This document shows, one piece after another, positions 8,462-60,619 of a stretch of DNA of 64,000 nucleotides. The DNA is from Brevundimonas sp. (GTDB taxonomy: Bacteria; Pseudomonadota; Alphaproteobacteria; Caulobacterales; Caulobacteraceae), in NCBI RefSeq assembly GCF_016463485.1, contig NZ_JAEMRD010000003.1, positions 1 to 64,000 of the forward strand. The letters are read 5' to 3'. Each line of letters opens with the position of its first letter. The stretch's first letter is position 1. Under the pieces are notes generated by a model, which saw only the letters and a program-made list of their open reading frames with translations, was not told the origin of the DNA and made no database searches. A program made the translations under genes and the position numbers.

Positions 8462-9808
8462 TCAAAGCCGTGGCAAGTTCTGTGTCCGCTCAAGGACGAT
8501 GCGTCGCGCCAGTGGTGCATCGCCCCTGAGCAGGGCCTGACGCAGACCTGGAACCGACGCAACGGCGGGGGCCGTAACTTGCGTGGAGACGGCCGCCACG
8601 ACGGACAGGAATATCTCGATCGCGTCATCGCCGGACAACGGACCGAGTTGGTCAAAAATCGATGACTCACCGACGGATTTCAACCGCTCTGCACGGACGG
8701 CATCCGGCGTCTCGCAGGCGGCGCTCACCGCCTCGAGCTGGAGCTGTCGATGGAAGGACGCCAGATCGTCGGAGGCGACCGTCGTCTGCCCCAGATACTC
8801 AAGCGCGCGCGCAACGGCCCGAGCCGGGTCGGGCACTGTGACGACCACGCCACCGGAACGCCCGCGCTCCATTCGGACCACCCCGTTCTGCTCCAGAATG
8901 CGGACGGCCTGTCTAAGGGTGCCCACCGTGACCTTGTAACGCGCCAACAGGTCGCCCGCCCCGCCGATCCTCGCACCCGGCCGCCAGCCGAGCAGGCGAA
9001 CGTCACGCAGCAGCTCGCGCGCCAGGCGCTCGGCCGGGCTGGATCCGCCGCCTATGGGCTGTTCAGTCTCGATCGGCGGCAGGAGGCGACCCTCCCTGTC
9101 GATGGCGCTCCAGGCGTCCTGGCTGTCCCGGATCACGGCCAGTTGTCGGCGGCGCAGATCGAAAAGAGCGGCGACATCGCCGGCCATTTGCGCGTCGACC
9201 ATTTCCAGCAGGGCGTCCCACCACGAGCGCTGAAAGTCCTGCCCCCCGGCGACGACGCTGTAGGGTGCCAGATCCTGGCCGTAGTCGGCCGTCACCTCAT
9301 AGGCGAGACCGGCCAGAGGGTCCCTGACCAGACGTCGGATGGCGACCATCAACTGACCGATCTCGCCGGCGGGCATGAGGCCGGCATTGCTCGCGCGCCT
9401 TAGCCGTTGGGCCAGCTGGCGTATGCGCTGGCACTCGACCAGCTCAAGCCTTGGCGTCGCTGTCAGAAAGACGTGTGTGTCGGTCGCCTTCAACAAGCGT
9501 TCGAGGGCGTGGGGGCCCTTCATCCGGCTTTCCAGCACAATGGCGAGCGCCCTACCGGCTGAACGTGGATCGGGAGGAGAGACGACTAGGCCACCGCCCG
9601 CGCCCCGCTTCATCGTGGCGACGCCACGCTCATCGAGAATGCGGACCGCCTGACGCAGGATTGACCGCCCGACATCGTGGCGAGCGCGTAGATCCTGCTC
9701 GGACGCGACCACGTCTCCCGGCTTCAGGTTCGATCCCCGGATCAGGTCCGTCAGTTGTGTCGCGAGTTGGACGGCGGCCGGATCGGCGGACATGGTTCTA
9801 ACCGTCAT
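8462..9808 (-). CDS. Double GntR/FadR-type regulator (two winged-helix + FCD-like units)
   Basis: The 448-aa protein is about twice the usual GntR-FCD length. Unit 1 has a winged helix at about residues 15-85 (LRARHDVGRSILRQAVRILD, GAGGGLVVSPPDP) and a helical C-domain to about 230. Unit 2 repeats this at about 248-320 (LLARYKVTVGTLRQAVRILE, GRSGGVVVTVPDP) with another helical domain to the end. One polypeptide may therefore do the work of a dimer or bind two operators. It lies 93 bp downstream of a co-directional TonB receptor gene and ends 4 bp from the convergent esterase. The receptor promoter carries two TCTGATATCAGA-like sites. The start could also be the ATG at 9793. Confidence 0.85.
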   Translation of the reverse strand: MTVRTMSADPAAVQLATQLTDLIRGSNLKPGDVVASEQDLRARHDVGRSILRQAVRILDERGVATMKRGAGGGLVVSPPDPRSAGRALAIVLESRMKGPHALERLLKATDTHVFLTATPRLELVECQRIRQLAQRLRRASNAGLMPAGEIGQLMVAIRRLVRDPLAGLAYEVTADYGQDLAPYSVVAGGQDFQRSWWDALLEMVDAQMAGDVAALFDLRRRQLAVIRDSQDAWSAIDREGRLLPPIETEQPIGGGSSPAERLARELLRDVRLLGWRPGARIGGAGDLLARYKVTVGTLRQAVRILEQNGVVRMERGRSGGVVVTVPDPARAVARALEYLGQTTVASDDLASFHRQLQLEAVSAACETPDAVRAERLKSVGESSIFDQLGPLSGDDAIEIFLSVVAAVSTQVTAPAVASVPGLRQALLRGDAPLARRIVLERTQNLPRL

Positions 9809-9901: not shown

Positions 9902-12220
9902 TCAGGTCCCGAAATCGAACCGCAACTCGACTCCGAAGAAGCGAGGCTGGCCGTACAGATAGGTGGCGACGCCGAACTGGCTGGTCAGCTGGTTGTTGGT
10001 CCCGGTGATATATTCTTCATCGGTCGCGTTGCGGACATAGGCGGCGGCACTGACGCCCGTGCCGTTGATGTTGCGCCAATCGGCCCGCAGATCGATCCGG
10101 GTATAGGCGTCGACATTGGTGCCCATGCTGGACAGGGCGACCAGGGCATTGCCGTTCGGCACGTTGGCCGGATCGGTCGCGATGCCGCTCTGGTAATAGA
10201 CGCTGGCCAGAGCCGACAGGTCGCCCATGCCTTCGGGCAGCGGGATTTCCACGCGGGGCGTGAAGTTCAGCTGGTGCTCGGGCGTGTTGGGGAAGCGGCT
10301 GCTGGACAGGTCGCCCAGCAGGGCATCGTTATAGCTGTCGTATTTGGCGTCGAGATAGGTGTATTGCACCGAGGCGCTGAACCAGTCGGTCGGGGCAATG
10401 GTCAGATCGAGATCGATCCCGGCGATGGAACCCGCAGCCGCGTTGCGCGTCACCGTCGATGCCGGCACGGTCGCCAGGTTCACGAACCGCTGGATGTTGG
10501 TGTAGTCATCGTAGAAGACGTCGGCCGCATACCGCACCTGCCAGTCGCCCAGGACGGCCAGACCCTTGATCCCGAACTCGTAGTCCGTGACTTCCTCGGG
10601 CTGGAAGAACTGGTCCGCCGGGTTGATCGCCGTGCCGTTGAAGCCGCCGCTCTTGAAACCCTTACGGACGGTCGCATAGACATTCAGATCCTGGCTGAAC
10701 TGGTAGTTGGCCGCGACGTTCCATGTCGTCGCATCGAAGCTGGCGAACAACCTGGCACCCGCCGCCGCGCTAAGACCGGTCGGGTAGGGCTGGAGCGGCG
10801 AGAACAGCACAAAGGTCTCTGACGGTCCGCTCGAGCGTTCGTCGGTGGTCTTGCGAATGCCGCCGGTCAGGGTCAGCTGATCCGTGACGGCCCAGTCGAC
10901 CTGACCATAGAAGGCTCGGCTGCCCGAGGACCCTTGGGCGATGTTGACGGCCTGGATCACGCCGCCGTTGGGCAGAAGGCCCGGGATCCGCACGAACTGA
11001 CGCGTGTCAAATCCGTAGACGATCGGCGTGTTGGAATCCTCGGTGAAATAGCCGATGACCCCGTCGATGTTCCCGAAGTTGAATTGGGCCTGGAACTCTT
11101 CGCTGGTGGTCTTGGTCTTCTTGCCGACCGGGTTGGTGACGTGCAGGACCGTTACCGGGCTACCGTCGAGGTCATAGGATTGCCCGGCTGTGAATCGACG
11201 CTGGCTGTAGATGTTCTTCAGCGTCAGGTGATCGTTGAGGCGCCAGGTGGTCGTATTGATCCAGCCCTGGCTGTCCAGCTTGATGAAGTCAGGCTCGTAG
11301 TTGGTCGCGATGGATCGCGGCCCTCGCGCCCTCTGGGCCGTCAGAGCCGTCTGCAACTGGGTATAGATCGGCTCATTCGAGAACGTCGGGGTGATGACCG
11401 ACAGCAGCAGGCCGGAACCGGCCTCATCGACCTCGACGTCCTGATAGAGCAGCGTGTTCTCGAACCCGTCGAACGGACGTGCCGTAATGCTGGCGCGCCA
11501 GGCCTGACGGTGCTCGTCATCCATCTGATCACCGGTCGTGACATTGTCGGTATAGCCGTCGCGGCGCAGCATCTGGCCCGCCACGCGGAACATCAACCTC
11601 TCGCCCAGGAGCGGGCCGCCGAGACCGAACTCGACGTCGCGGCGGCTGTAGTTGCCGACCCGGCCCAGCAGATAGCCGTTGAAGTCCTCGCTCGGCGCCT
11701 TGGGCGCGAACAGGATGGCACCGCCGGTGGTGTTCCGGCCGAACAATGTGCCCTGCGGTCCCTTCAGGACCTGGATGCCCTGCAAGTCGAAGATGGCGTC
11801 TCCGAACGAGGGCACTTCGGCAAAGTAGGGCACGACGCCGGGAGAATTCTGACCGAAGGTCTGACCCTGGCCGCGAATCGAATAGGTGATGTTGTTGCGG
11901 TTTGCGGTGGTGTTCTGAACACTGAGGCCCGGCGCGACCTGACCCAGGTCGTTGGCATCCCGGACGCCCTTTTCTTCGAGGATTTCCTCGCTCAACGCCG
12001 TTACGGCGATCGGCACTTCCTGCAGGCGCTCCTGCCGACGACGGGCAGTCACGACCACGTCGTCCACGGCCGATGCGGAATTCGGGTCACTGGATGATGG
12101 CGTAGCCTGCTGTGCGGATACCAGCGTCGGGGCCGTCAGGCAGGTCGCGAAAAGCAGACCTGCAAGGCCAAGCTTGCGAAGTGGGCGCGCGAAAGCGGCG
12201 CCGAAAGCGTGATCGTTCAT
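9902..12220 (-). CDS. TonB-dependent outer-membrane receptor
   Basis: The 772-aa receptor starts with a signal peptide (LGLAGLLFATCLTAPTLVSA). The plug domain opens VDDVVVTARRRQERLQEVP and contains LKGPQGTLFGRNTTGGAI. A long beta-barrel region follows, ending in FFGVELRFDF, with terminal aromatic residues as in outer-membrane barrels. It imports a substrate across the outer membrane using TonB energy. The track start at 12391 adds 57 unlikely residues. The ATG at 12220 follows a perfect GGAGGG site. It is divergent from the unusual hydrolase at 12504 and probably co-transcribed with the double GntR gene. Its cargo is unknown. Confidence 0.9.
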   Translation of the reverse strand: MNDHAFGAAFARPLRKLGLAGLLFATCLTAPTLVSAQQATPSSSDPNSASAVDDVVVTARRRQERLQEVPIAVTALSEEILEEKGVRDANDLGQVAPGLSVQNTTANRNNITYSIRGQGQTFGQNSPGVVPYFAEVPSFGDAIFDLQGIQVLKGPQGTLFGRNTTGGAILFAPKAPSEDFNGYLLGRVGNYSRRDVEFGLGGPLLGERLMFRVAGQMLRRDGYTDNVTTGDQMDDEHRQAWRASITARPFDGFENTLLYQDVEVDEAGSGLLLSVITPTFSNEPIYTQLQTALTAQRARGPRSIATNYEPDFIKLDSQGWINTTTWRLNDHLTLKNIYSQRRFTAGQSYDLDGSPVTVLHVTNPVGKKTKTTSEEFQAQFNFGNIDGVIGYFTEDSNTPIVYGFDTRQFVRIPGLLPNGGVIQAVNIAQGSSGSRAFYGQVDWAVTDQLTLTGGIRKTTDERSSGPSETFVLFSPLQPYPTGLSAAAGARLFASFDATTWNVAANYQFSQDLNVYATVRKGFKSGGFNGTAINPADQFFQPEEVTDYEFGIKGLAVLGDWQVRYAADVFYDDYTNIQRFVNLATVPASTVTRNAAAGSIAGIDLDLTIAPTDWFSASVQYTYLDAKYDSYNDALLGDLSSSRFPNTPEHQLNFTPRVEIPLPEGMGDLSALASVYYQSGIATDPANVPNGNALVALSSMGTNVDAYTRIDLRADWRNINGTGVSAAAYVRNATDEEYITGTNNQLTSQFGVATYLYGQPRFFGVELRFDFGT

Positions 12221-12329
12221 CGTTCCCTCCGTGCCGGCAACACCCTTGATGGGTGCTGGTGGGATGATCCCCCCGCCGTGCATTGAACAAATCAGTCTCA
12301 TATGTTCAGAAAGTCGGCAAGAAGATTCG

Positions 12330-12341
12330 TCTGATATCAGA
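12330..12341. promoter_or_regulatory. Perfect palindrome TCTGATATCAGA (candidate operator)
   Basis: This 12-base perfect palindrome lies 110 bp upstream of the receptor start and 163 bp upstream of the divergent hydrolase. It is the best example of a motif, TCTGA-NN-TCAGA, that recurs in other catabolic promoters here. The symmetry fits a dimeric repressor such as a GntR or TetR protein. Confidence 0.5.
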
Positions 12342-12420
12342 ACGGTGGTTTTGGAGACCAACCAAAGGCGGGTTGATATTGGGTCACCCATTCAACCTCG
12401 TTCCCACTAGAGAATAGTTG

Positions 12421-12432
12421 ACCGATATCAGA
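12421..12432. promoter_or_regulatory. Degenerate copy ACCGATATCAGA of the same motif
   Basis: The right half and centre (GATATCAGA) match the palindrome at 12330 exactly, while the left arm is changed. It lies 91 bp centre to centre from that site, in the same divergent promoter and closer to the plus-strand hydrolase gene. Two sites in one promoter would suit a protein with two DNA-binding units. Confidence 0.35.
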
Positions 12433-12503
12433 ATGACTGCATAGATGGCATCATCGGCCGCAGAGCCGGGACCGGATGCGGTCACACATTGGGAAGAACG
12501 CTT

Positions 12504-14597
12504 ATGTTGAATGTCGTCGATAAGCCGGCGCTGGAGACCCGCGGCTACGTCGTTCGTGACAGCTATTTTGGTGCCCCGTACATCGACCGGGACGAATGGC
12601 GCGAGAAACCCTACCCCCATCGCAACGTCCACGGGGGATTCGCAGACACCGACACGCGCTTTACCTTCTACTTCCCGGCCGAGGAGGAATGGGGCGGCCG
12701 GATGTATCATCCACTCGAAGGTGCCCATGCGGGACACGAAGAGGCCTTTGCCGGGGCCATGGGCGCGCTGCTGGGTGGTCTCGACATGATGGTCGGCCTG
12801 GGCGGCTATATGGTCGAATCGAACTCGGGCCATATCGGCGACGACATCGATCCGCGCGCCGGCATCGATCCAAGCCTGTACGGCTATCGCGCCAGCGTCG
12901 AGAGCGCGCGGTTCTCGAAATACGTCTGCAAACAGGTGTTCGGCCGCGAGCCGGACTACAGCTATGTCTGGGGCGGCAGCGGCGGTGGCCGCCGGTCGCC
13001 ACTGTGTCTGGAATATTGCGACGGCGTCTACGACGGCGCCCTGCCCTTCATGGGCGGCGGCAATGTCGAGCCCCACGGCACAAACTCGCGTGTCCGCAGC
13101 GAGCAGCCCTTCTCGTTCGGCAGTATGTTCAACGTCCAGCGCCTGTTGCGCGGCGACAAGCTGGACAGTGTCATCGACGCCATGGCCCCCGGCGGCAGTG
13201 GCGATCCCTTTGTCGGGCTGACCCAGCACGAGCGCGAGGAACTGGCCAACCTCTATCGCCTCGGATACCCGCGCGGCGACGAGTTCATGATCGCCAAACC
13301 CATGGGCCAGATCTGGCTGTGGTGTTCGATCGCCGGAATGCTGCTGGAGGAGGACGCGGACTATTTCGCGAACTTCTGGACCCAGCCCGGCTATATCGGT
13401 CACGATCGCCCCGAGGTGGTCAGGGACGACCTGATCGACGTCAAACTTCCGATCACCCGCATCATCACCGCCCAGGACCTGATGGGCGAGGAGTTCGCCG
13501 GGGCCGAGTATGCCGACTCCAAGGCGATGATCATGCTGATGGCATCCAGCAGCGGGGCCTGGGACCTGCCCGTCGCCATCGAGGTCAAGGGCCTCACCGG
13601 CGGCTACAGCACCGGCTGCGGCGTCAGGATCGACAGCGGTGCCGTCGCGGGCCGGCAATTGTTCTGCACCCGCGCTGTGGGCGACATCTGGTTCTGCGAC
13701 GGTCGCGCCGACGCCAACATCCTGCGCTTCCGAGGTGTCGAGGTCGGCGACAGCGTCCACCTGGACAACCACGCCTTCCTGGCCTTCTGCTACGCCTATC
13801 GACACCACATTTCGGAAGATCCGCTGAACGACTTCCTGCGCGTGGACGGTCAGCCGATCTATCCGCAGCACGGCGTGCCGGTGCAATCGCCGCTGATGGG
13901 CGTGCCCTATTCGGGACAGTACGAGGGCAAGCTGCTTTGGGTCCACCACACCCATGACGCCTCGCTATGGCCGCCCCAGGGCGTCATCTACAAGAGGGCG
14001 GTCGAAGAGGCGCAAGGGCCTGAAAAGGCACGCGAGAGGTTCCGTCTGCAGTGGACCCAGAACGCCGAGCACGTCCCGCCGATGCTGCTGCCGACCAATC
14101 CCAAACGGGCGACGACGACCTGGCTGATCGACTATATGCCCGTTATCGAACAGGGACTGGTCGATCTGGCGACCTGGGTCGAACAGGGCATCCCACCTGC
14201 CGAGACGACCTATGCCTTCTCGGACGGAAAGGTCACCCTGCCTCATTCCGCCCGGGAACGCGGCGGCATTCAGCCGGTCGTGGAGGTTACCGCCAACGGA
14301 ACCGTGCGGACCGACGTCAGGGTCGGTGAACCGGTCACCTTGACCGTCCACGCCGAGGCACCCGAGGGCGCAGGGACCTTCACCCAGGCGCATTGGGATC
14401 TCGACGCCAGCGGCGCCTATTCGCTCATGGCCGAAGTGGCACATGGCCAGACCGACCTGACGCTGTCGACGACGACCGCCTTCGACAAACCCGGCGTCTA
14501 TTTCGCCACCTGCCGGGTGCGGCTGAACCGTCACGGCGATCCGTCGGCCCGCAGGCAGGTCGAAAACCTCGCCTCGGCCAGGGTCGTGGTCACCTGA
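12504..14597 (+). CDS. Large putative alpha/beta hydrolase with C-terminal PKD-like domain
   Basis: I do not recognise a named family for this 697-aa protein. A nucleophile-like elbow YVWGGSGGGRRSPLCLEYC places Ser159 in a tannase-like setting, and GALPFMGGGNVEPHG follows. Residues of about 600-697 read as an immunoglobulin or PKD-like beta domain (VGEPVTLTVHAEAPEGAG, DKPGVYFATCRVRL). No signal peptide is seen. The ATG at 12504 follows GGGAAGAA, while the track's TTG at 12489 lacks such a site. It is divergent from a TonB receptor and followed after 105 bp by a tannase-family esterase, so a role in opening a related ester is plausible. Catalytic acid and histidine are not assigned. Confidence 0.6.
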   Translation: MLNVVDKPALETRGYVVRDSYFGAPYIDRDEWREKPYPHRNVHGGFADTDTRFTFYFPAEEEWGGRMYHPLEGAHAGHEEAFAGAMGALLGGLDMMVGLGGYMVESNSGHIGDDIDPRAGIDPSLYGYRASVESARFSKYVCKQVFGREPDYSYVWGGSGGGRRSPLCLEYCDGVYDGALPFMGGGNVEPHGTNSRVRSEQPFSFGSMFNVQRLLRGDKLDSVIDAMAPGGSGDPFVGLTQHEREELANLYRLGYPRGDEFMIAKPMGQIWLWCSIAGMLLEEDADYFANFWTQPGYIGHDRPEVVRDDLIDVKLPITRIITAQDLMGEEFAGAEYADSKAMIMLMASSSGAWDLPVAIEVKGLTGGYSTGCGVRIDSGAVAGRQLFCTRAVGDIWFCDGRADANILRFRGVEVGDSVHLDNHAFLAFCYAYRHHISEDPLNDFLRVDGQPIYPQHGVPVQSPLMGVPYSGQYEGKLLWVHHTHDASLWPPQGVIYKRAVEEAQGPEKARERFRLQWTQNAEHVPPMLLPTNPKRATTTWLIDYMPVIEQGLVDLATWVEQGIPPAETTYAFSDGKVTLPHSARERGGIQPVVEVTANGTVRTDVRVGEPVTLTVHAEAPEGAGTFTQAHWDLDASGAYSLMAEVAHGQTDLTLSTTTAFDKPGVYFATCRVRLNRHGDPSARRQVENLASARVVVT

Positions 14598-14702
14598 GTT
14601 CAGAACAACGAACGGGTCCAAGGCGACCCAGACTTTTCCAACGCCGGTGATGCGTCCGATCAAGAGGCGCGATGCCTGCGACAACGTCCAGGGAGAACAA
14701 TC

Positions 14703-16358
14703 GTGAGTCTATCTGTGAAATCCAGACTACTGGCGTGCGGCGGTGCCGTCGGGGCGCTGGCGCTATTCTACGGGTCATCCGCGTCCGCAAGGACGTGCGA
14801 GACCGCCACGGTCCAGGCCAGCGCACCGGCCGACACCACGATCACTTCGGCGACCCCGACGGCGGCCCCTGTGCCGCACTGCCGGATCGAGGGCTATGTG
14901 ACGACCACCAACCCCGGTCCGAACAAGGTCAATTTCCGCCTGCAACTGCCCGACACCGGTTGGCAGAACCGCTATTATTTCATCGGCATGGGAGGGGCGG
15001 CGGGATATGTGCCGTCGGATTCGCAGATCCCCGCCGGCAATCCGCTGGTTCAGGGTTTCGCTGTCGCCGGCACCGATACGGGGCACACCGGGCACATCCT
15101 GGACTGGAGCTTCCTGGCCGATCCCGCTCAGGCCCGCGACCACATCGACCGCGGGGCCCATGTCACCGCTGTCGCGACCCAACAGATCACGCGTCTCTAT
15201 TATGGCGTCCAGTCCTTCTATCGCTACACCTCCGGCTGCTCAGGCGGCGGGCGGATGACGACGGAGGCCATCGAGCGGCACCCCGAGGACTATGACGGCG
15301 TCCTGCTCGGTGCCCCCGGTGGTCGCAGCTCGGCGACCATGCTGGCCTTCATCAACGCGGCCCAGCAGATGGCGCGTGAGCCGGGTGCCTGGGTCTCGCC
15401 GGCCAAGTTCGCCATGCTGGACGCCAAGGTCACCGCCGCCTGCGACGAGATCGACGGTGCCAAGGACGATATCATCCAGGACCACACCAAATGTCGCTTC
15501 GACTTCGACACGGTGGCCTGCACCGACGGTGACAAGCCGGATTGCCTGACTCAGCCCGAACTCAAAAGCATCAAGGCCATCGTGGCCGGGCCCCGCAGTC
15601 CGGCAGGCCAAATCAAGGTCGGCTTTCCGATCTCCAACATGACCGTGTGGGCGGGCTTCATGGGCCAAGTTCCGCCCCCTTGGTCGGACGCCGCCACGGT
15701 CGAGAACATGGCGCGTTCATCGCCCGGCTATGTGATCGGCAGCTCGCTGGCCAAGGTCCTGTTCGGCCCTGACTTCGACGTCATGACCATGGACCTCAAC
15801 GACCAGGCCACGGTCGATCGCTGGTGGGAAGCGACCAAGGAGCTGGATTTCGGCTGGCCCTACAGCGCCAATCTCGCGCCCTATCGTGCCGCCGGCGGCA
15901 AGGTGCTGATGTGGAACGGGGTCAGTGATCCTTGCTGTATCGACACGGAGATGGAGCAATATTACGCCGATGCGGCTGTTTCGGTCGGCGGCATGGACAA
16001 CCTGCGCCAGTTCGCCAGCTTCTATAAGATCCCAGGCATGGGCCACTGCGGCTCGGGCACGGGGCCCGGCGATGCGCCCGACGTGCTGATGACCGAGCTC
16101 ATCAACTGGGTCGAGAAGGGCGAGGCTCCCGGACCCGTCGTCGCCCACCGCGGAGTGGATCGTCAGCAGCTGCTGTTCGCCGATCCCGCGACCCGGATGG
16201 TGTCCGGTGTCCTCGTGCCGCCGCCGACGGGAACCTCGCGCGATTTCATGCTGTGCCGCTATCCCGAGGTCGCCGTGTTTGATCGCTCCAAGGCCAGCGT
16301 ACCGAACGCCGTCTACGATGCCGCCAACTGGACCTGCCAGGCCCCGCCACGCACCTGA
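14703..16358 (+). CDS. Tannase / feruloyl esterase family protein, exported
   Basis: The 551-aa protein has a Sec-type signal peptide (LLACGGAVGALALFYGSSASA). The complete CS-D-HC catalytic arrangement of the tannase family is visible: Cys179-Ser180 in SGCSGGGRM, Asp409 in GVSDPCC and His448-Cys449 in GMGHCGSGTG. Such enzymes hydrolyse galloyl, feruloyl or other aromatic esters outside the cytoplasm. It starts at a GTG behind AGGGAGAAC. The preceding hydrolase gene lies 105 bp upstream and both are probably one transcript. Exact ester unknown. Confidence 0.85.
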   Translation: MSLSVKSRLLACGGAVGALALFYGSSASARTCETATVQASAPADTTITSATPTAAPVPHCRIEGYVTTTNPGPNKVNFRLQLPDTGWQNRYYFIGMGGAAGYVPSDSQIPAGNPLVQGFAVAGTDTGHTGHILDWSFLADPAQARDHIDRGAHVTAVATQQITRLYYGVQSFYRYTSGCSGGGRMTTEAIERHPEDYDGVLLGAPGGRSSATMLAFINAAQQMAREPGAWVSPAKFAMLDAKVTAACDEIDGAKDDIIQDHTKCRFDFDTVACTDGDKPDCLTQPELKSIKAIVAGPRSPAGQIKVGFPISNMTVWAGFMGQVPPPWSDAATVENMARSSPGYVIGSSLAKVLFGPDFDVMTMDLNDQATVDRWWEATKELDFGWPYSANLAPYRAAGGKVLMWNGVSDPCCIDTEMEQYYADAAVSVGGMDNLRQFASFYKIPGMGHCGSGTGPGDAPDVLMTELINWVEKGEAPGPVVAHRGVDRQQLLFADPATRMVSGVLVPPPTGTSRDFMLCRYPEVAVFDRSKASVPNAVYDAANWTCQAPPRT

Positions 16359-16421: not shown

Positions 16422-17093
16422 TCAGCTTGCGTCGGCCTTGCGGAAATCGGCTCGGGCCTCGGTCGAGAACGGGCAGGTCAGCACGGCCAGAGCCGCCTCG
16501 AACACGTCACTGCAATACTGGTCGGTACTGGCATAGCCGGCCGGCGAAAGCTTGAGCTTGCCGCCCAGTTCGGAAATGCCGTTTAGAAAAACGCTGGCGC
16601 TCAGTGCAAGGCGGCGACGAAAAACATCGGGCTCGAGATGCGAAAGCGATTCGCTGAGTTTGCTGCGGATCTCGGTCGAGGCCGGAGAGATATCGGTCGA
16701 ACGCACGAACGGATGCTGTTCCGGATCCAGATGCATGACGGCCAGGGTGAAGCGCGCATAGTCCTTCATGTCCTGTGCCTCCAACACGGTCACCAAGGGC
16801 GAGAACAGGCAACTCAACATCCGCGCCACGCTGAAATCATTCTCGGCCCGGGCCGCGTCGAGCAGGCTCTGGCGATGGGCCTCCATGGCCGGAAGCCGCA
16901 TCTCCGACACCGCCTGGATCAGGCCGAGCTTGGACCCGAAATGATGCTGGACGACATAGTTGTTGGCCTGGCCGGCGGCGGTGGCCAGTTGGCGCAGCGA
17001 CACCCCATCCAGACCGTGCTGACCGTACAGCCGTTCCGCCGCCAGCATCAGCTTCTTGGCGGTCTTCGGATACTCGTGAAACAGTCTTGCCAT
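16422..17093 (-). CDS. TetR-family transcriptional regulator
   Basis: The 223-aa regulator has an N-terminal helix-turn-helix DGVSLRQLATAAGQANNYVV followed by HHFGSKLGL at about residues 30-60 and a helical C-terminal domain. The start at 17093 (MARLFHEYPKTAKKLM) is preferred over the track start at 17111, but both are possible. It converges on the tannase gene and is divergent from the esterase at 17431, so one of these operons is its likely target. The NNYVVQHHFGSK wording is typical of TetR proteins in steroid and aromatic catabolic loci, but the ligand is unknown. Confidence 0.85.
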   Translation of the reverse strand: MARLFHEYPKTAKKLMLAAERLYGQHGLDGVSLRQLATAAGQANNYVVQHHFGSKLGLIQAVSEMRLPAMEAHRQSLLDAARAENDFSVARMLSCLFSPLVTVLEAQDMKDYARFTLAVMHLDPEQHPFVRSTDISPASTEIRSKLSESLSHLEPDVFRRRLALSASVFLNGISELGGKLKLSPAGYASTDQYCSDVFEAALAVLTCPFSTEARADFRKADAS

Positions 17094-17430
17094 CTGCGGT
17101 CCATGCCCCACTGCCGCACAAAATAAAAGCAGACGATCCCGCGAGAAATTAGAGACGATCGCTGCCGATCCGGTTTAAGGCGCTTGACTTATACAGGCGT
17201 TCGTCCTCAGATGCAGCGGGGCATTTCGAGCGGCAGCAAAGGCAAACGCCGCTTGATCAGACCTCGAAAAAGCAGTCGTCGGCGCGTCGCCGTACGACGC
17301 GGGAGTGGAAACGCAGTCATCACCGTTCTCACCCGCTTTGCGGCGCGGTCGGCCATGCCGACTCTTCGACAAAGCGTGAGGCGGACCACCAGCAACGAGA
17401 TCCCTGGGGTCTCCGGGAAACAGGTTCGGC
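17094..17430. other. 337-bp divergent intergenic region
   Basis: No credible gene is seen here. The region separates the TetR gene from the esterase at 17431 and must hold both promoters. It contains CTTGACTTAT at 17183, which could be a -35 element (TTGACT) with TCAGAT 17 bases on. The identical 10-mer occurs before the TonB receptor at 21143. No copy of the TCTGA-NN-TCAGA palindrome was found here. Confidence 0.5.
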
Positions 17431-20928: not shown

Positions 20929-20959
20929 GTCACTTGACTTATGTTTTTCAGAAGATCAA

Positions 20960-20971
20960 TCTGAAGTCAGA
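20960..20971. promoter_or_regulatory. Palindrome TCTGA-AG-TCAGA (candidate operator)
   Basis: Both arms match the perfect site at 12330, and only the two central bases differ. It lies 183 bp upstream of the TonB receptor start at 21143 and just behind a possible -35 element (TTGACT at 20934). A second dyad, TTCAGA-N7-TCTGAA (20947-20965), overlaps it. Confidence 0.5.
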
Positions 20972-21142
20972 TCGCAATCAAGGATCAGGGCTCGCTACCA
21001 AGCTTCAGGGACCCGCCGCGCTTCGTCCAGTCGATGCAGACACGACAGTCCCCGCGCACGTGACGACATTCAAACCAGCTCGAACATCAAGGACGGCATA
21101 GACGGTCCTGAGCTGGCCAACATCATTTCCTTAGGGGGAAAC

Positions 21143-36664: not shown

Positions 36665-37327
36665 CTAGCCGCGCTTCAGCGTCCGCAGGATAAGGTCGAT
36701 CGTGGTCTGGAGCCTCAGGGCGAGCGGCTTGCCCTCGGCCGGAGGCACGACCGTTTCACTGAGTGCAAGACGCACCATCATCTCGGCGATGGCATTGCGG
36801 TCCACGGGCGTGCCGATGTCCCGCTCCCAGGCATCGAAGACCGGGTCCAGGGCATTCAGAACCCGCGCGATGAAATGATCGAAGTTCGATTCGAAATACT
36901 GGATCACGAAGGCCGGTTCGACGTGCAGGAACTGCGATCCACGGCGGGTCTCGTTGTTCGACACACTGTATTTCAGGAAGGCGGCGAACCGTTCAGTCGG
37001 TGTCTCGCAACCCTCCATCGCGTGATTCAGTTCGTCGTCGGTCTCCGTGCGCAGACGCAGGACCACGGCCTCGAGCACGGCCTCCATCGACGGGAAATAG
37101 CGGTACAGGGTGCCGCGCGATACCCCGGCGGCATCGCAGACCTCCTGGGCCGTGATGCGAGGGGTGCCGTGATTCATCATCACGTTCTGGGCCGCATTGA
37201 CAATGTTCTCGATGGTCTTGGCCGCGCGGGGATCGGGCCGGCGCGTGCGACCCGCCTCCGGCGCGGCGCGACTGGCCGGGCGCTCGGCCATCGCCTCAGG
37301 GCGGGCCTTTCGGGCGCTGACGGTCAT
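36665..37327 (-). CDS. TetR-family transcriptional regulator
   Basis: The 220-aa regulator has a basic N-terminal tail, then a helix-turn-helix ITAQEVCDAAGVSRGTLYRYF at about residues 60-80 and a helical ligand domain. The ATG at 37327 is preferred to the track start at 37429, which lies in the promoter. It is divergent from the SDR at 37488 and probably controls it. A CAGAA-N7-TTCTG dyad lies in the shared promoter. Confidence 0.85.
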   Translation of the reverse strand: MTVSARKARPEAMAERPASRAAPEAGRTRRPDPRAAKTIENIVNAAQNVMMNHGTPRITAQEVCDAAGVSRGTLYRYFPSMEAVLEAVVLRLRTETDDELNHAMEGCETPTERFAAFLKYSVSNNETRRGSQFLHVEPAFVIQYFESNFDHFIARVLNALDPVFDAWERDIGTPVDRNAIAEMMVRLALSETVVPPAEGKPLALRLQTTIDLILRTLKRG

Positions 37328-37417
37328 GCGTTGAAGGCTCCAGGGATTCGAGCCCAAGGGTAGCCCGCAGGGCCCCGAATCGCAAACCGCACAGGCCTCG
37401 GACGAAATAGTTCGAGA

Positions 37418-37434
37418 CAGAAATAGCAATTCTG
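37418..37434. promoter_or_regulatory. Inverted repeat CAGAA-N7-TTCTG
   Basis: This 17-base dyad is in the TetR/SDR divergent promoter. Read on the minus strand it is CAGAATTGCTATTTCTG, close to CAGAATGCTATTCTG upstream of the P450 at 48573. It may be the operator of the adjacent TetR protein. Confidence 0.4.
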
Positions 37435-44268: not shown

Positions 44269-44416
44269 AGTCATCCTCCGTGCCGGGAGTCCCTTGGGGA
44301 CTTCTCCGGGGGCGCTCGGCCCATCGTTCCTCGTTGAATCGAACAGTTGCATTTTCTATACAGAAATGCCACCTCTGTTCAAAATTATATGGCGCAAGTC
44401 GCCGCGGAGGACAACT
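44269..44416. promoter_or_regulatory. Divergent promoter of the two ring-attack operons
   Basis: The 148-bp gap serves the ferredoxin operon (minus) and the Rieske operon (plus). It contains the dyad TTTCT-ATAC-AGAAA at 44353-44366, overlapping ACAGA-N9-TCTGT (44360-44378). Half sites of the ACAGA/TCTGT type also occur in the P450 and TonB promoters at 48.6 and 52.6 kb. Confidence 0.45.
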
Positions 44417-45793
44417 ATGCTGGACCGGACACGGACAACGCTTTCGGACGGGACGACGATCGACGATCTGATCAATGTGCAGACCCGAGAGGTACAGCTG
44501 CGCGCGATCTCGGATCCCGAACTCTACGACATCGAAATGCGCAAGGTGTTCGGCAAGACCTGGCTCTTGCTGGGTCACGAGAGCGAGATTCCGGCCTCGG
44601 GCGACTTCATTACCCGGCTGATGGGATCCGACCCCGTTCTGATCACGCGTCAGAAGGACGAGACCATCAAGGTCATGCTGAACGTCTGCCCGCACCGGGG
44701 CATGCGCGTGTGCGTCAACGACGCCGGCAACGCCAAGGTCCACACCTGCATCTATCATGGCTGGGCGTTCAAGAACGACGGCGACTTCATCGGCGCGCCC
44801 GTCGCCGGCGAGAAGATGCACGGCGACATCCTGCCCAAGGAAAAGCTCGGCCTGACCCAGGCGCGCGTCCACATCTACGGCGGCCTGATCTTCGCCACCT
44901 GGAATTTCGAAGGCCCCTCGTTCGACGAATTCCTCGGCGAGATGAAGTGGTACTACGACATGCTGTTCTGCCGGACGGACAACGGCCTTGAGGTCCTGGG
45001 TCCGCCGCAGCGCTTCACCATCAAGGCCAACTGGAAGACGGCCTGCGAGCAGTCCGCCTCCGACGGTTTCCACACGCTGACGCTCCACCGCTGGCTGGGC
45101 GAGTTCGCCAAATTCGGCGATGGCGACCTGACCACCTCGATGTACGGCACCGAAGTGAGCTCCCTGCAAGGTCACTCCCTGCGCTGCATGCCCGTGGCGA
45201 ACAAGTTCAAGCAGGCCAAGGATTTCCGGGACGGAAACCTGACGATCGCCGAGAAGCTGGCTATCGTGCCGCCCCCCGGTATCACCAAGGAAATGCTGCC
45301 CGAACTGGTCCGCAACCTGACGCCGGAACAGCTGGGCCTGCTGGTCGACAGCCCGCCCCAGGTCGGAGGAATGTTCCCCAACGTCCTGATCGCCTTCATT
45401 TATGTGCCCCAGCCGGACGGCGAGATCATCGGCCTGACCTCGCTGCACACCTATATCCCCAAGGGCCCGGACGAGCTGGAGTTCTGCAACTACATCCTCG
45501 CTGAAAAGGACGCCCCCGAGGAGCACAAGCAGAAGGCGCTGCAGTTCGCGGTACGCATGCTGGGTACCTCCGGCATGGTCGAACAGGACGATTCCGACAC
45601 GTGGCCGCATATCACCCAGACCGCCAAGGGTGCCGCCGCTCGCAATGTCACGATGAAGTATCAGGCCGTCTGCACCACCCCGCCACGGCCCGACTGGCCC
45701 GGTCCGGCCCTGGTCTACGAAGGCTTCACCAAGGACGACACCCAGTGGAACTGGTGGCTGGCCTATCGCGACCTGATGAACGCCCCGGCTTGA
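44417..45793 (+). CDS. Rieske non-heme iron oxygenase, alpha subunit
   Basis: The 458-aa protein has a Rieske [2Fe-2S] site with Cys91/His93 (CPHRGMRV) and Cys111/His114 (CIYHGWAF). It also has a mononuclear iron site with Asp216, His219 and His224 in DGFHTLTLHRW. This is the catalytic subunit of an aromatic-ring-hydroxylating oxygenase that adds O2 to the substrate using electrons from a ferredoxin. The ATG at 44417 follows GCGGAGGA. The beta subunit gene lies 31 bp on. Substrate specificity is not readable from these motifs. Confidence 0.93.
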   Translation: MLDRTRTTLSDGTTIDDLINVQTREVQLRAISDPELYDIEMRKVFGKTWLLLGHESEIPASGDFITRLMGSDPVLITRQKDETIKVMLNVCPHRGMRVCVNDAGNAKVHTCIYHGWAFKNDGDFIGAPVAGEKMHGDILPKEKLGLTQARVHIYGGLIFATWNFEGPSFDEFLGEMKWYYDMLFCRTDNGLEVLGPPQRFTIKANWKTACEQSASDGFHTLTLHRWLGEFAKFGDGDLTTSMYGTEVSSLQGHSLRCMPVANKFKQAKDFRDGNLTIAEKLAIVPPPGITKEMLPELVRNLTPEQLGLLVDSPPQVGGMFPNVLIAFIYVPQPDGEIIGLTSLHTYIPKGPDELEFCNYILAEKDAPEEHKQKALQFAVRMLGTSGMVEQDDSDTWPHITQTAKGAAARNVTMKYQAVCTTPPRPDWPGPALVYEGFTKDDTQWNWWLAYRDLMNAPA

Positions 45794-55302: not shown

Positions 55303-57570
55303 TCAGAAGGCGTAGTGAAGGCTGACGCCATACGTCCGGGGGCTGCCCACCACGATGGAGTTGAAGTTGGCCGCCGCGAACGAGCCGGACCTCGCCGCGA
55401 AGTATTCGTCGGTCAGGTTCTTGCCGTAGGCGGCCAGGGTGATCGGTGCGTTGGCGAAGGTAAACGACAGCTGGGCGTTCAGCAGGCCGTATCCCTCCTG
55501 GCTGATCGAGCGGCGCTGGAAATCCGTCAGGGGGACCGGCCCGGTGCCCGTGATCGACACCGTGTTCAGGAAGAAGACCTCCGAGCGGGAGTTGTAGTCC
55601 GCGTGCAGGTCCAGACGCCCCGCTTCCAGCTCGATCGGATAGTCGGCGCTGAACGAATAGGTGGTCTTGGCCACCGTCGGGATTTCCGATCCCTTGTAAG
55701 GCCCCTCGGTGAATTCCGGATGGATCAGGCCCAGGGATGCGTTCAGACGCAGGTCGCCCAGAAGGGCCGTCGCCTCGAACTCGCCGCCATAGATTTCCGC
55801 CGTCCCCGAGTTGAGCACGGCGATGATCACGGGGCTGGCCGACAGGATGGCGTTCTGCTGGATGTCCTCGAAGGTCGAGAAATAGCCGCTCAGCCCCATC
55901 CGCAGACGGTTGTCGAAGAAGGTCAGCTTGGCACCGGCCTCGTAGCTGGCGACGCTCTCCTCGTCGAACGGGCGATAGAAGGCGGCGGTGGTGCCGCTGG
56001 CCTGCTGGAACCCGCCAGAGCGGAAACCCTTCGAGAATTTCGCGAACAACAGGCCGTCGCCGGGCAGGCGGTAGTCTAGCCCCACCGTGAAGGGCACGGT
56101 GTTGAACTCGATGTCGGCGGGTGTGTATAGGCAGCTGCCGGGCGCTTCGTTCAGGCCGATCGCAGTGAACGGGCAGGCGGCCGGGGTGACCGCGGTCGCC
56201 GGCGGCTCGGCGACCAGCGCGGCTCCGGCGACGGCGAAGCGTGCCGGCGTGTAGGTCATGCCCCGCGTGTCCTTCACGGCGCGAACGCCGCCGGTGAGGC
56301 GCAGGCGCGGCAGGATTTCGTAGCTGAGCTGAGCGAACACGCTCATCGATTCGTTGTCGGGGCGGATCGTATTGTCCTGGATCGCGGTCGGCACCCGGGT
56401 GATCGGCGAGTTGCGGATCTGCTCGCGGAAATAATAGGCGCCGGTGGTCCAGTTCAAACGGTCGGCGAAGGCCGTGCCCGTCAGTTGAAGCTCCTGCGAC
56501 ACCTGATGGCCGTCGAGCTCAAAGATCCGGACGTCGGCGGTCGGGATCGGCGTGCCGTCGAGGTCGGAAGCCCCCTCGAAATTCACATTGCGATAGGCCG
56601 AGATCGACTTCAGCGTCGCCGAGCCGAGCTGCGCCGTGATCGTGCCGGTGAAGTCGTAGACCTCGGAATCATTGACGGGGTTGTAGCCCGCCTGGCTGAC
56701 CCGCGACTCGGACGCGGCGACATAGGGCGCATACATCGCCGCCGACAGCCCGGCCTGATACGAGTTCAGCACCCACAACGGCTGATGGTTCGAGCCGGAG
56801 TAGTGGTCGAAGCTCAGGTCGACCCTCAGGTCGGGCGAGATGTCGGCGCGAACGCTGGCGCGCAGGAAGTCGTCGTTCTGGTCCGCGACGTCGCTGCGCA
56901 GCGTCGGGTTATAGCCATACCCTTCGTGCTCGACGTGGCTGTAGACGAGGCGCGCCGCCAGCTTGTCGTCCACGAGTGGCAGGTTGACGATGCCCGTCGC
57001 GGTGATCGCATTGTAGTTGCCGTAGCCCAGCTTCAGCGAGCCTCCGAAATCATAGGACGGCTTGTTGGTCGTGATGTTCAGCGCGCCACCAATGGTGTTG
57101 CGGCCGAACAGGGTGCCCTGCGGCCCACGCAGAACCTCGGCCGAGGCGACATCGACCATGGCGAAATTGCTGCCCTCGGGCCGGGCGTAGTAGAGGCCAT
57201 CGACATAGGTGCCCACTGCCTGATCGACGTTGGGCAGAACGCCGCCGGGCGCGACGCCGCGGATGGCCAGGATCAGATCGTTGTTGCCATAGGGCGTGGC
57301 GGTGAAGGTGATCGACGGCGCATTCTCGGTCAGGGCCCGAACGTCCGTGATCTGACGACGGTCAAGCTCGCGCGCGCTGAAGGCGGTGACGGCGACCGGA
57401 ACATCCTGAAGACGTTCCTCGCGCCGCTGGGCGGTGACAATGACTTCTTCGAGTCCCGTCGCCACTTCGGGCTCGGGCTGCACCGGCACGCTCTGGGCCA
57501 TCGCGAGCGACGGTAACCAGAACAGCGATGCGCCGGCGAACAGCGCAGCCTTCCTCATGGTGCGTGACAT
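55303..57570 (-). CDS. TonB-dependent outer-membrane receptor
   Basis: The 755-aa receptor has a signal peptide (AALFAGASLFWLPSLAMAQS). The plug opens LEEVIVTAQRREERLQDVP with LRGPQGTLFGRNTIGGAL, and the barrel ends TYGVSLHYAF. The ATG at 57570 follows AGGGAAGGAAG. The upstream gap holds two operator-like elements (57692-57712). It is terminated on its own, so the receptor is a single-gene unit between the SDR-FAH pair and the CoA ligase. Confidence 0.91.
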   Translation of the reverse strand: MSRTMRKAALFAGASLFWLPSLAMAQSVPVQPEPEVATGLEEVIVTAQRREERLQDVPVAVTAFSARELDRRQITDVRALTENAPSITFTATPYGNNDLILAIRGVAPGGVLPNVDQAVGTYVDGLYYARPEGSNFAMVDVASAEVLRGPQGTLFGRNTIGGALNITTNKPSYDFGGSLKLGYGNYNAITATGIVNLPLVDDKLAARLVYSHVEHEGYGYNPTLRSDVADQNDDFLRASVRADISPDLRVDLSFDHYSGSNHQPLWVLNSYQAGLSAAMYAPYVAASESRVSQAGYNPVNDSEVYDFTGTITAQLGSATLKSISAYRNVNFEGASDLDGTPIPTADVRIFELDGHQVSQELQLTGTAFADRLNWTTGAYYFREQIRNSPITRVPTAIQDNTIRPDNESMSVFAQLSYEILPRLRLTGGVRAVKDTRGMTYTPARFAVAGAALVAEPPATAVTPAACPFTAIGLNEAPGSCLYTPADIEFNTVPFTVGLDYRLPGDGLLFAKFSKGFRSGGFQQASGTTAAFYRPFDEESVASYEAGAKLTFFDNRLRMGLSGYFSTFEDIQQNAILSASPVIIAVLNSGTAEIYGGEFEATALLGDLRLNASLGLIHPEFTEGPYKGSEIPTVAKTTYSFSADYPIELEAGRLDLHADYNSRSEVFFLNTVSITGTGPVPLTDFQRRSISQEGYGLLNAQLSFTFANAPITLAAYGKNLTDEYFAARSGSFAAANFNSIVVGSPRTYGVSLHYAF

Positions 57571-57691
57571 CGTGCTTCCTTCCCTGTGCGCCTTGGTTGG
57601 CGGTCGCAACCTGAGCGACCCCTGACGGTCCGCGCGGTCTCTTGTCGTTAGGGAAAGGACACTACAGCGAAAACTAAGTCAACTGCTTTAA

Positions 57692-57712
57692 TCTGATATC
57701 CGAATGTCATTC
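57692..57712. promoter_or_regulatory. Two overlapping operator-like elements, TCTGATATCCGA and CGAATGTCATTC
   Basis: TCTGATATCCGA (57692-57703) differs from the perfect palindrome at 12330 at one base. It overlaps CGAATGTCATTC (57701-57712), identical to the core at 34093. Both lie about 120-140 bp upstream of the TonB receptor start. This promoter alone carries both shared motif types. Confidence 0.5.
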
Positions 57713-57757
57713 TTGATTTGGTATGCGAACGACGCACCCAACGCACGAACCGCGCGG

Positions 57758-59389: not shown

Positions 59390-59589
59390 TCGTCCACCCT
59401 TGGCCCGGACGGGTCAATCCGTCGCCTTGGGCCAGGCCCACGACGCCGGCGACACGCCTCGCCTTCCTCGTCCCTGCGGCCCTGCCGTCTCGCCCTCAGT
59501 TGACCTGAAAGCCGGACAGAAGCCGGACCCCGCGCGGCAGGATCGTGCAGGCGAAACTAGCCGGGTCGCCCCGACCGGTCCAGCAATAT

Positions 59590-59601
59590 TCTGATATTAG
59601 T
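59590..59601. promoter_or_regulatory. Operator-like TCTGATATTAGT upstream of the CoA ligase
   Basis: Ten of 12 bases match the palindrome at 12330. It lies about 200 bp upstream of the ligase start and overlaps the last codons of the MDR gene. Confidence 0.35.
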
Positions 59602-60619
59602 CGTTCGTTCTGTTTTCAGAACTCACGATCTCGACCACGATCTTGCCGCTCGCGCCGCGCGACGCCAAGCGGGCGATCGCCTCCCCGCCTCTCTCCAGCG
59701 GATAGCGTTCCGAGACCAGCGGCCTGATACACCCCTCGGCATGGAGTGCCATCAAGTCGCGCATGTCCTGCGCCCCCGCCAGCGGGTCACGCGCCATCCA
59801 TGCGCCCCAGAAGACGCCGGTGATCTGGGCGTTCTTGAGCAGGACGAGGTTCAGGGGGATGGACGGAATGCCTGCGGCGAACCCGACCACCAGATAACGC
59901 CCCTCCCAAGCGATAGACCGGAACGCCGGCTCGGCATAGGCACCGCCGACGGGATCCAGGATGATGTCGGCCCCGTCTTCGCCGCACGCGTCTTTCAACG
60001 CCTGGGTGAAGGCCCTAGCCCGGGCCGCGTCCGACAGGTCGCGATCATACAGCACCCCGGAGTCGGCGCCTCTCGCGAGAGCGGCGTCGAGCTTTTCCTG
60101 CGACGAGGCTGCGGCGACGACCCTGGCCCCCAGCGCCTTGCCCAACTCGACCGCCGCCAGCCCGATCCCGCCCCCGGCACCCAGCACCAGCAGGGTCTCG
60201 CCTGCGCCGATTCCGGCCCGGCCCACCAGGGCATAATAGACGGTGCCGTAGGTCACTTGAAACGCCGCCGCCTCGTCGAACGGCATGGCGTCGGGGATCA
60301 CGGTGCAACGATCCGCGGACACGACCACGACCTCGGCCATGGCACCGAACGGCAGGGACGCCGACACCCGCTGTCCCACGACCGGCGCCACGACGCCGGG
60401 CCCCACGGCGCGCACGACACCCGACAGTTCGCTGCCGGGTGAGAAGGGCCGGGTCGGCCGAAGCTGATATCGGTCCTCGATCACCAGCACGTCGGGGAAA
60501 TTGACACCGCAGGCATGAACTTCGACAGCGACCTGACCTGCGGCCGGGACGGGTTCATCGACCTCGTGGACCAATAGGGTTTCCGGGCCACCCGGCGTCA
60601 CACTCTGAAGGGCTCGCAC
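59597..60619 (-). CDS. Zinc-independent MDR / NADPH:quinone oxidoreductase-like
   Basis: The 340-aa protein has the MDR N-domain (VHACGVNFPDVLVIEDRYQL, PFSPGSELSGVV) and a Rossmann domain with LVLGAGGGIGLAAVELGKAL. Structural zinc Cys are absent. The track start at 60739 adds 40 residues without support. The GTG at 60619 follows GGAGATTTGCC and fits family length. It may reduce a double bond of an enoyl-CoA or enone. It is co-directional with the ligase about 200 bp away and divergent from the MFS gene. Confidence 0.85.
   Translation of the reverse strand: MRALQSVTPGGPETLLVHEVDEPVPAAGQVAVEVHACGVNFPDVLVIEDRYQLRPTRPFSPGSELSGVVRAVGPGVVAPVVGQRVSASLPFGAMAEVVVVSADRCTVIPDAMPFDEAAAFQVTYGTVYYALVGRAGIGAGETLLVLGAGGGIGLAAVELGKALGARVVAAASSQEKLDAALARGADSGVLYDRDLSDAARARAFTQALKDACGEDGADIILDPVGGAYAEPAFRSIAWEGRYLVVGFAAGIPSIPLNLVLLKNAQITGVFWGAWMARDPLAGAQDMRDLMALHAEGCIRPLVSERYPLERGGEAIARLASRGASGKIVVEIVSSENRTND

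Follow-up and report, generated by a model that had tools for sequence, protein, structure and literature searches.

A covalently doubled GntR-FCD regulator and candidate paired operators in a TonB-receptor/esterase cluster of Brevundimonas

Few regulator families of bacteria are as large as GntR, for whose members the literature describes dimers and, in a single paper, a tetramer, always of single units. One winged helix-turn-helix (wHTH) per chain is the usual layout in this family, which the profile PF00392 itself does not demand. A 64,000-nucleotide stretch of Brevundimonas sp. DNA (hereafter the window) encodes a GntR chain in which this unit occurs twice. A natural fusion with both DNA-binding units conserved makes it possible to ask how covalent linkage alters operator architecture. 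The gene and the parts of its product are located as follows.

8462..9808, minus strand: double GntR-FCD regulator gene, 448 aa, a single unbroken ORF
9581..9781, minus strand: first winged helix, residues 10-76, recognition region VGRSILRQA with the canonical Arg kept
9095..9565, minus strand: first FCD-like helical domain, residues 82-238, without the His triad
8840..9037, minus strand: second winged helix, residues 258-323, recognition region VTVGTLRQA without the Arg of the SR motif
8480..8827, minus strand: second FCD-like domain, shortened and weakly conserved, residues 328-443

Two orthologues open with MATDP, which makes the ATG at 9793 the probable true start. An earlier note on this DNA had described two complete GntR-FCD regulators fused in one chain and proposed a domain search for two matches of each domain. 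PF00392 was indeed found in two separate stretches of the protein (whole-protein score 54.8 bits, E 7e-15, against a cut-off of 27), with 37.8 and 31.0 bits for the individual copies in a whole-genome scan, so that the chain has two GntR winged helices instead of the usual one. The motifs at the ends of these helices, GGGLVVSPPDP and SGGVVVTVPDP, lie where the earlier note had placed them. Thus, the two wHTHs in one ORF stand, while the word "complete" does not hold for the FCD domains: PF07729 gave no match in the 448-aa protein even at E<=10, and the second FCD, besides being short, shows little conservation. NCBIfam matches were all under the cut-off and mostly belonged to GntR models covering the wHTH.

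The predicted structure bears out the alternation of winged helices and helical domains that had been expected. An AlphaFold model built from seven sequences (mean pLDDT 80.7, pTM 0.79) consists of a winged helix (10-76), a helical bundle (82-238), a second winged helix (258-323) and further helices (328-443), with a poorly predicted linker at about 250-254. In Foldseek comparisons with the PDB, the full model retrieved almost only FCD-type GntR proteins (VanR Atu1419, CGL2915, AlkR, NanR, FadR and TM0439), and the nearest structures to the C-terminal half modelled alone were again nearly all of this type; TM-scores of these matches were low, mostly 0.2-0.6, for both models. The His triad of the FCD metal site was not found at the expected helices of either half in alignments judged by eye. 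This site is not universal among FCD regulators, and FadR lacks it (PMC7674646). The doubled architecture is therefore real, and its FCD domains are degenerate in sequence, the second one being shortened. The suggestion that the protein senses two ligands gains no support from a second FCD that is short and fast-evolving, nor from the missing His triads. The recognition helices also differ, VGRS with the SR arginine against VTVG without it, so the two units should read different sequences.

The doubled form is not confined to this genome. Twenty-two proteins, nearly all from different genomes, carry it as one open frame, and they span Caulobacterales, Sphingomonadaceae (the family of Sphingobium wenxiniae), another family of the alphaproteobacterial class, and Rhodococcus. 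A genome search found a full-length orthologue with 63% identity in the same genus. Orthologues at 62-72% identity occur in Brevundimonas bullata, a B. subvibrioides MAG and two Caulobacter MAGs, and relatives at 36-43% on a plasmid of Caulobacter sp. FWC26 and in a bin labelled Verrucomicrobiaceae; further doubled members were found in the same family (Caulobacteraceae) and in another family of the order. For these scans a profile from a three-member alignment worked, whereas nine distant doubles aligned together proved too divergent. The doubling is sparse, being present in 2 of 120 relatives and in 3 of 101 Sphingomonadaceae genomes. PF07729 is matched in several doubled relatives, with two FCD stretches per chain in three of them, and these three suggest that GntR-FCD-GntR-FCD was the original layout. 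A frameshift joining two genes, which the earlier note had named as a refuting result, was rejected, as was an assembly error, since the same doubled single ORF recurs in so many other genomes, some with two Pfam FCD matches; no point in its favour was found, and its probability is negligible.

Both halves appear to have been kept for a long time. In a tree of the 44 halves of doubled proteins and 63 single GntR units, the 44 halves cluster together, joined by three long-branch singles, with moderate support; a single clade of all halves was not rejected and scores slightly better (p-AU 0.54). Within the subfamily of the window protein, the eight N-terminal halves (100/100) fall into one clade and the eight C-terminal halves (100/96) into another. 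The doubling therefore took place before these genomes diverged, and neither half has been lost since. One duplication placed in the subfamily's ancestor was not rejected (p-AU 0.21). A recent tandem duplication was rejected because of these separate clades and because the halves of the window protein are only 30% identical (44% between the wHTHs). Among five orthologues the two wHTHs are equally conserved, with 47 of 75 invariant columns in the N-terminal and 50 of 75 in the C-terminal one, and the first FCD is far better conserved (88 of 167 columns) than the second (31 of 124).

The regulator gene is flanked by a group of carboxylesterase, aldehyde dehydrogenase and GMC oxidoreductase genes on one side and by a TonB-dependent receptor gene on the other. 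Within the reach of the contigs, the orthologous loci have the same receptor and esterases, and so does the plasmid locus of FWC26, whose regulator is 40% identical. In FWC26 the gene at the place of the first esterase listed below is annotated as a PKD domain protein. The same catabolic region of the window contains a Rieske dioxygenase alpha subunit gene (44294-45793, plus strand), nearest to 3-phenylpropionate/cinnamate dioxygenase models, below their cut-off.

9902..12220, minus strand: TonB-dependent receptor, upstream of the regulator and co-directional; start at ATG 12220 rather than 12391
12504..14597, plus strand: tannase/PKD-like esterase gene, divergent from the receptor; PF07519, E 3e-10
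14703..16358, plus strand: tannase/feruloyl esterase; PF07519, 266.8 bits

When five loci were aligned, the intergenic region between receptor and esterase proved to contain two strongly conserved boxes, TTCTGANNTCRGTCAANNATTCTCT and TTCTGANNTCAGACGAATNTTCTTG, separated by an almost unconserved spacer. They correspond to the 12421 and 12330 sites that the earlier note had offered as places for a DNA-binding test. The divergent promoter of all five orthologous loci thus has two conserved candidate operators resembling TTCTGANNTCAGAA.

12401..12433, minus strand: candidate operator box 1, TTCTGATATCGGTC followed by TTCTCTAGTGGGAA 19 bp on
12318..12342, minus strand: candidate operator box 2, TTCTGATATCAGAC followed by the half-copy TTCTTG 19 bp on
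14592..14605, minus strand: palindrome TTCTGAACTCAGGT, upstream of the tannase gene, with no 19-bp partner

Box 1 adjoins a TTGAC-like -35 element of the divergent tannase-like gene. A formal sigma-70 scan of the divergent region gave no match, and the promoter elements rest on reading by eye. The exact composite pattern occurs twice in the genome of the window, both times in the receptor/esterase promoter, and with at most one mismatch there are two copies at this promoter in each of five genomes. Among 101 relatives, exact composite boxes occur in only two, the same two that have the double regulator; part of this co-occurrence is mere linkage, because regulator and boxes share one locus. 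The core palindrome is enriched on the contig of the window, which holds 5 of about 19 distinct genome sites on 2.4% of the genome, and it is symmetric, reading CTGANNTCAG in most copies. The usual core of FadR-subfamily sites is GT...AC (PMC4494728), which the sites of this cluster do not fit. The palindrome TTCTGAACTCAGGT at 14592..14605 was not conserved in the two orthologues aligned. On the receptor side, the most conserved intergenic stretch contains TGAACA-N14-TGTTCA (12283-12308, minus strand), which may be a promoter or another operator. Elsewhere in the same genome, contig 78 (L104, about 2473) has an exact core palindrome, TTCTGATATCAGA, between branched-chain oxo-acid dehydrogenase-like and Lrp-type regulator-like genes; this match is probably unrelated.

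In all five loci, box 1 contains, besides the main palindrome, a weaker 14-mer copy, TTCTCTNNTNNGAA, at a spacing of 19 bp. The same spacing is seen at further sites in the window.

20940..20972, plus strand: TATGTTTTTCAGAA followed 19 bp on by ATCTGAAGTCAGAT, a pair located upstream of another TonB receptor, the second of the cluster
57691..57723, minus strand: candidate paired site upstream of the TonB receptor 55303-57609, TACCAAATCAAGAA then TTCGGATATCAGAT, 19 bp apart
59589..59621, plus strand: TTCTGATATTAGTC and TTCTGTTTTCAGAA at a spacing of 19 bp, a pair located where a quinone oxidoreductase gene has its 3' end and upstream of the gene for an acyl-CoA ligase

The full site at 59589 consists of two palindromes, TTCTGATATYAG and TTCTRTTTYCAGAA, 19 bp apart, and B. 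bullata has one extra composite match at the same place, by its acyl-CoA ligase and quinone oxidoreductase genes. Partial 19-bp partners accompany sites that had been found by the core alone, at 20959 and 57692 and at L098:16422 in another Brevundimonas locus. Summed over all sites, an offset of 19 exceeds every other partner distance (34, where the mean is 18.9 and the s.d. 3.7), and it also leads for the core-only sites, which were chosen without it (25 against 14.7, s.d. 2.9). Comparison with shuffled flanks gave a combined p of 0.005 when only unselected sites were counted and of 0.002 when only unselected positions were; these statistics are of moderate strength, and the pairing was found after looking. 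A genome search with the paired pattern gave 16 matches against 4 in the control. With at most two mismatches there are four matches in the genome, three of them inside this cluster. A further paired-pattern match lies beyond the window, at contig position 70748, upstream of an acyl-CoA dehydrogenase-like gene. The idea of paired operators thus gains support, for the sites at 12330 and 12421 are intergenic boxes conserved in five loci and a second copy follows at 19 bp at several promoters. The receptor promoter of FWC26 (L096:9226-9250) has TTCTCTATTGAGAA followed by TTCTTG 19 bp on, which is the geometry of box 2 with a changed core, and it accompanies the 40%-identical doubled regulator. 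Around other doubled proteins, a generic search for palindrome pairs at 19 bp gave no general signal.

From these observations it is proposed, with a probability of about 0.5, that the covalently doubled GntR-FCD-GntR-FCD protein controls the surrounding TonB-receptor/esterase catabolic cluster, two chains acting together on paired palindromes. By analogy with Atu1419 and NanR, it would be a local repressor. Two chains would associate and place their two N-terminal winged helices on the palindrome that resembles TTCTGANNTCAGAA, while the C-terminal pair, with its diverged recognition helix, would sit on the weaker palindrome 19 bp, or about two turns, away. Binding at box 1 would block the esterase promoter, because this box abuts the -35-like TTGAC, and binding at box 2 would block the receptor side. 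Release of the repressor would come from a compound formed when the imported ester is broken down, which most likely binds to the better-conserved first FCD, and the second FCD would probably serve mainly for association. The result is a predicted regulon for TonB-receptor-linked ester catabolism in Caulobacteraceae, and with candidate operators, spacing and target genes named, the locus may offer a naturally occurring example, open to testing, of a covalently doubled regulator that reads paired sites.

Other arrangements of the same protein on DNA can be imagined. One chain may be equivalent to one ordinary GntR dimer, with the N-terminal and C-terminal wHTHs on the two halves of a single palindrome; the 19-bp partners would then reflect chains lying side by side, or be incidental. 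Ordinary GntR regulators are dimers, and the model places both halves with a pTM of 0.79. Extra half-sites are also familiar from ordinary GntR regulators, whose sites have weaker adjacent half-sites 7-12 nt from the centre (PMC4494728), so that a second box is not unique to the fusion and the link between fusion and pairing is hypothetical. However, the core of the site is symmetric though the recognition helices of the two halves differ, which is better explained by identical helices from two chains, and the single-palindrome arrangement appears rather unlikely. It is more doubtful still that the N-terminal wHTH alone reads DNA, the C-terminal half being a leftover that aids folding or association. 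In that half the recognition helix has lost the arginine of the SR motif and the FCD, which is short, evolves fast, but its wHTH has been conserved as well as the N-terminal one, with the nearly equal counts of invariant columns given above.

The boxes may instead belong to another local regulator, either of the TetR genes at 16422-17111 and 36665-37429, while the double GntR controls something else. Orthologues of TetR 16422 are present in two box-bearing loci (L098 and L101), and one of TetR 36665 in B. bullata. Against this, the 66-kb contig of B. bullata that carries both boxes has no orthologue of TetR 16422, and FWC26 has this TetR at 83% identity, yet its plasmid is without a match to the composite pattern. 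In these genome comparisons the boxes follow the double GntR rather than TetR 16422, and ownership by a TetR protein is quite improbable.

The proposed paired reading by the doubled regulator can be compared with known FCD-type systems. Atu1419 of Agrobacterium fabrum (VanR group, PDB 6za3), with its wHTH and FCD fold, is among the top structure matches. It represses a hydroxycinnamate catabolic region from short promoter-region palindromes, of which one lies between -10 and -35 and another further off, and it is a tetramer with four wHTHs per assembly that is able to loop DNA (PMC7797058). In Atu1419 the four wHTHs come from non-covalent association of single units, whereas here two units are fused; its Zn site has three His, which the double regulator lacks, and the site pairs of the present cluster are close, 19 bp apart. 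NanR of E. coli is likewise an FCD-type GntR protein that reads a repeated operator with adjacent units, but three separate dimers occupy the (GGTATA)3 repeat without any fusion (PMC8012715). FadR and CGL2915/LldR (PDB 1hw1, 2di3) have the fold predicted for each half of the double regulator, and in FadR the metal histidines are also missing (PMC7674646); both are single-unit chains, and FadR-subfamily sites are of the GT...AC type (PMC4494728). If the paired reading is true, the fusion would provide within the chain itself what GntR proteins of one unit must obtain by assembling into tetramers or arrays of dimers.

The same doubled architecture is seen in WP_127846918.1 (Caulobacter sp. FWC26) and WP_011600154.1 (Rhodococcus jostii RHA1), which are annotated by family only, as "GntR family transcriptional regulator", and for which no functional description was found. 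Public annotation treats the doubled proteins in general simply as GntR or FCD family regulators, and no account of a tandem, double or fused GntR-FCD family was found in open full texts, a scope that leaves subscription papers and InterPro architecture counts aside. It is conceivable, at somewhat less than even odds, that these proteins form an undescribed and ancient covalently doubled GntR-FCD family, and that the present subfamily, through two winged-helix sets that have diverged from each other, reads palindromes paired at a fixed spacing of 19 bp.

Some other doubled members likewise have tannase-like genes and receptors beside them. In the genome of the window, a second, divergent doubled GntR of 482 aa, 22-27% identical, is encoded on contig 21 (L021:3062-4510) between a tannase-like gene and a TonB receptor. 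One contig of another genome of the same family (G188; L090, L091, L092) carries, in a stretch of about 36 kb, three doubled GntR genes that differ from one another, near look-alikes of carotenoid oxygenases, SDRs and TonB receptors, and in two of the three proteins the first FCD is much shortened. The Verrucomicrobiaceae-labelled bin (L102, L127, L128) also has three doubled genes, two of them close to the Caulobacteraceae type, which may reflect transfer or mis-binning. On plasmid pRHL2 of Rhodococcus jostii RHA1, two doubled GntR-FCD genes lie about 15 kb apart (L097:7905-9353 and L126:4776-6194), and FCD profiles are recognisable in both of their products.
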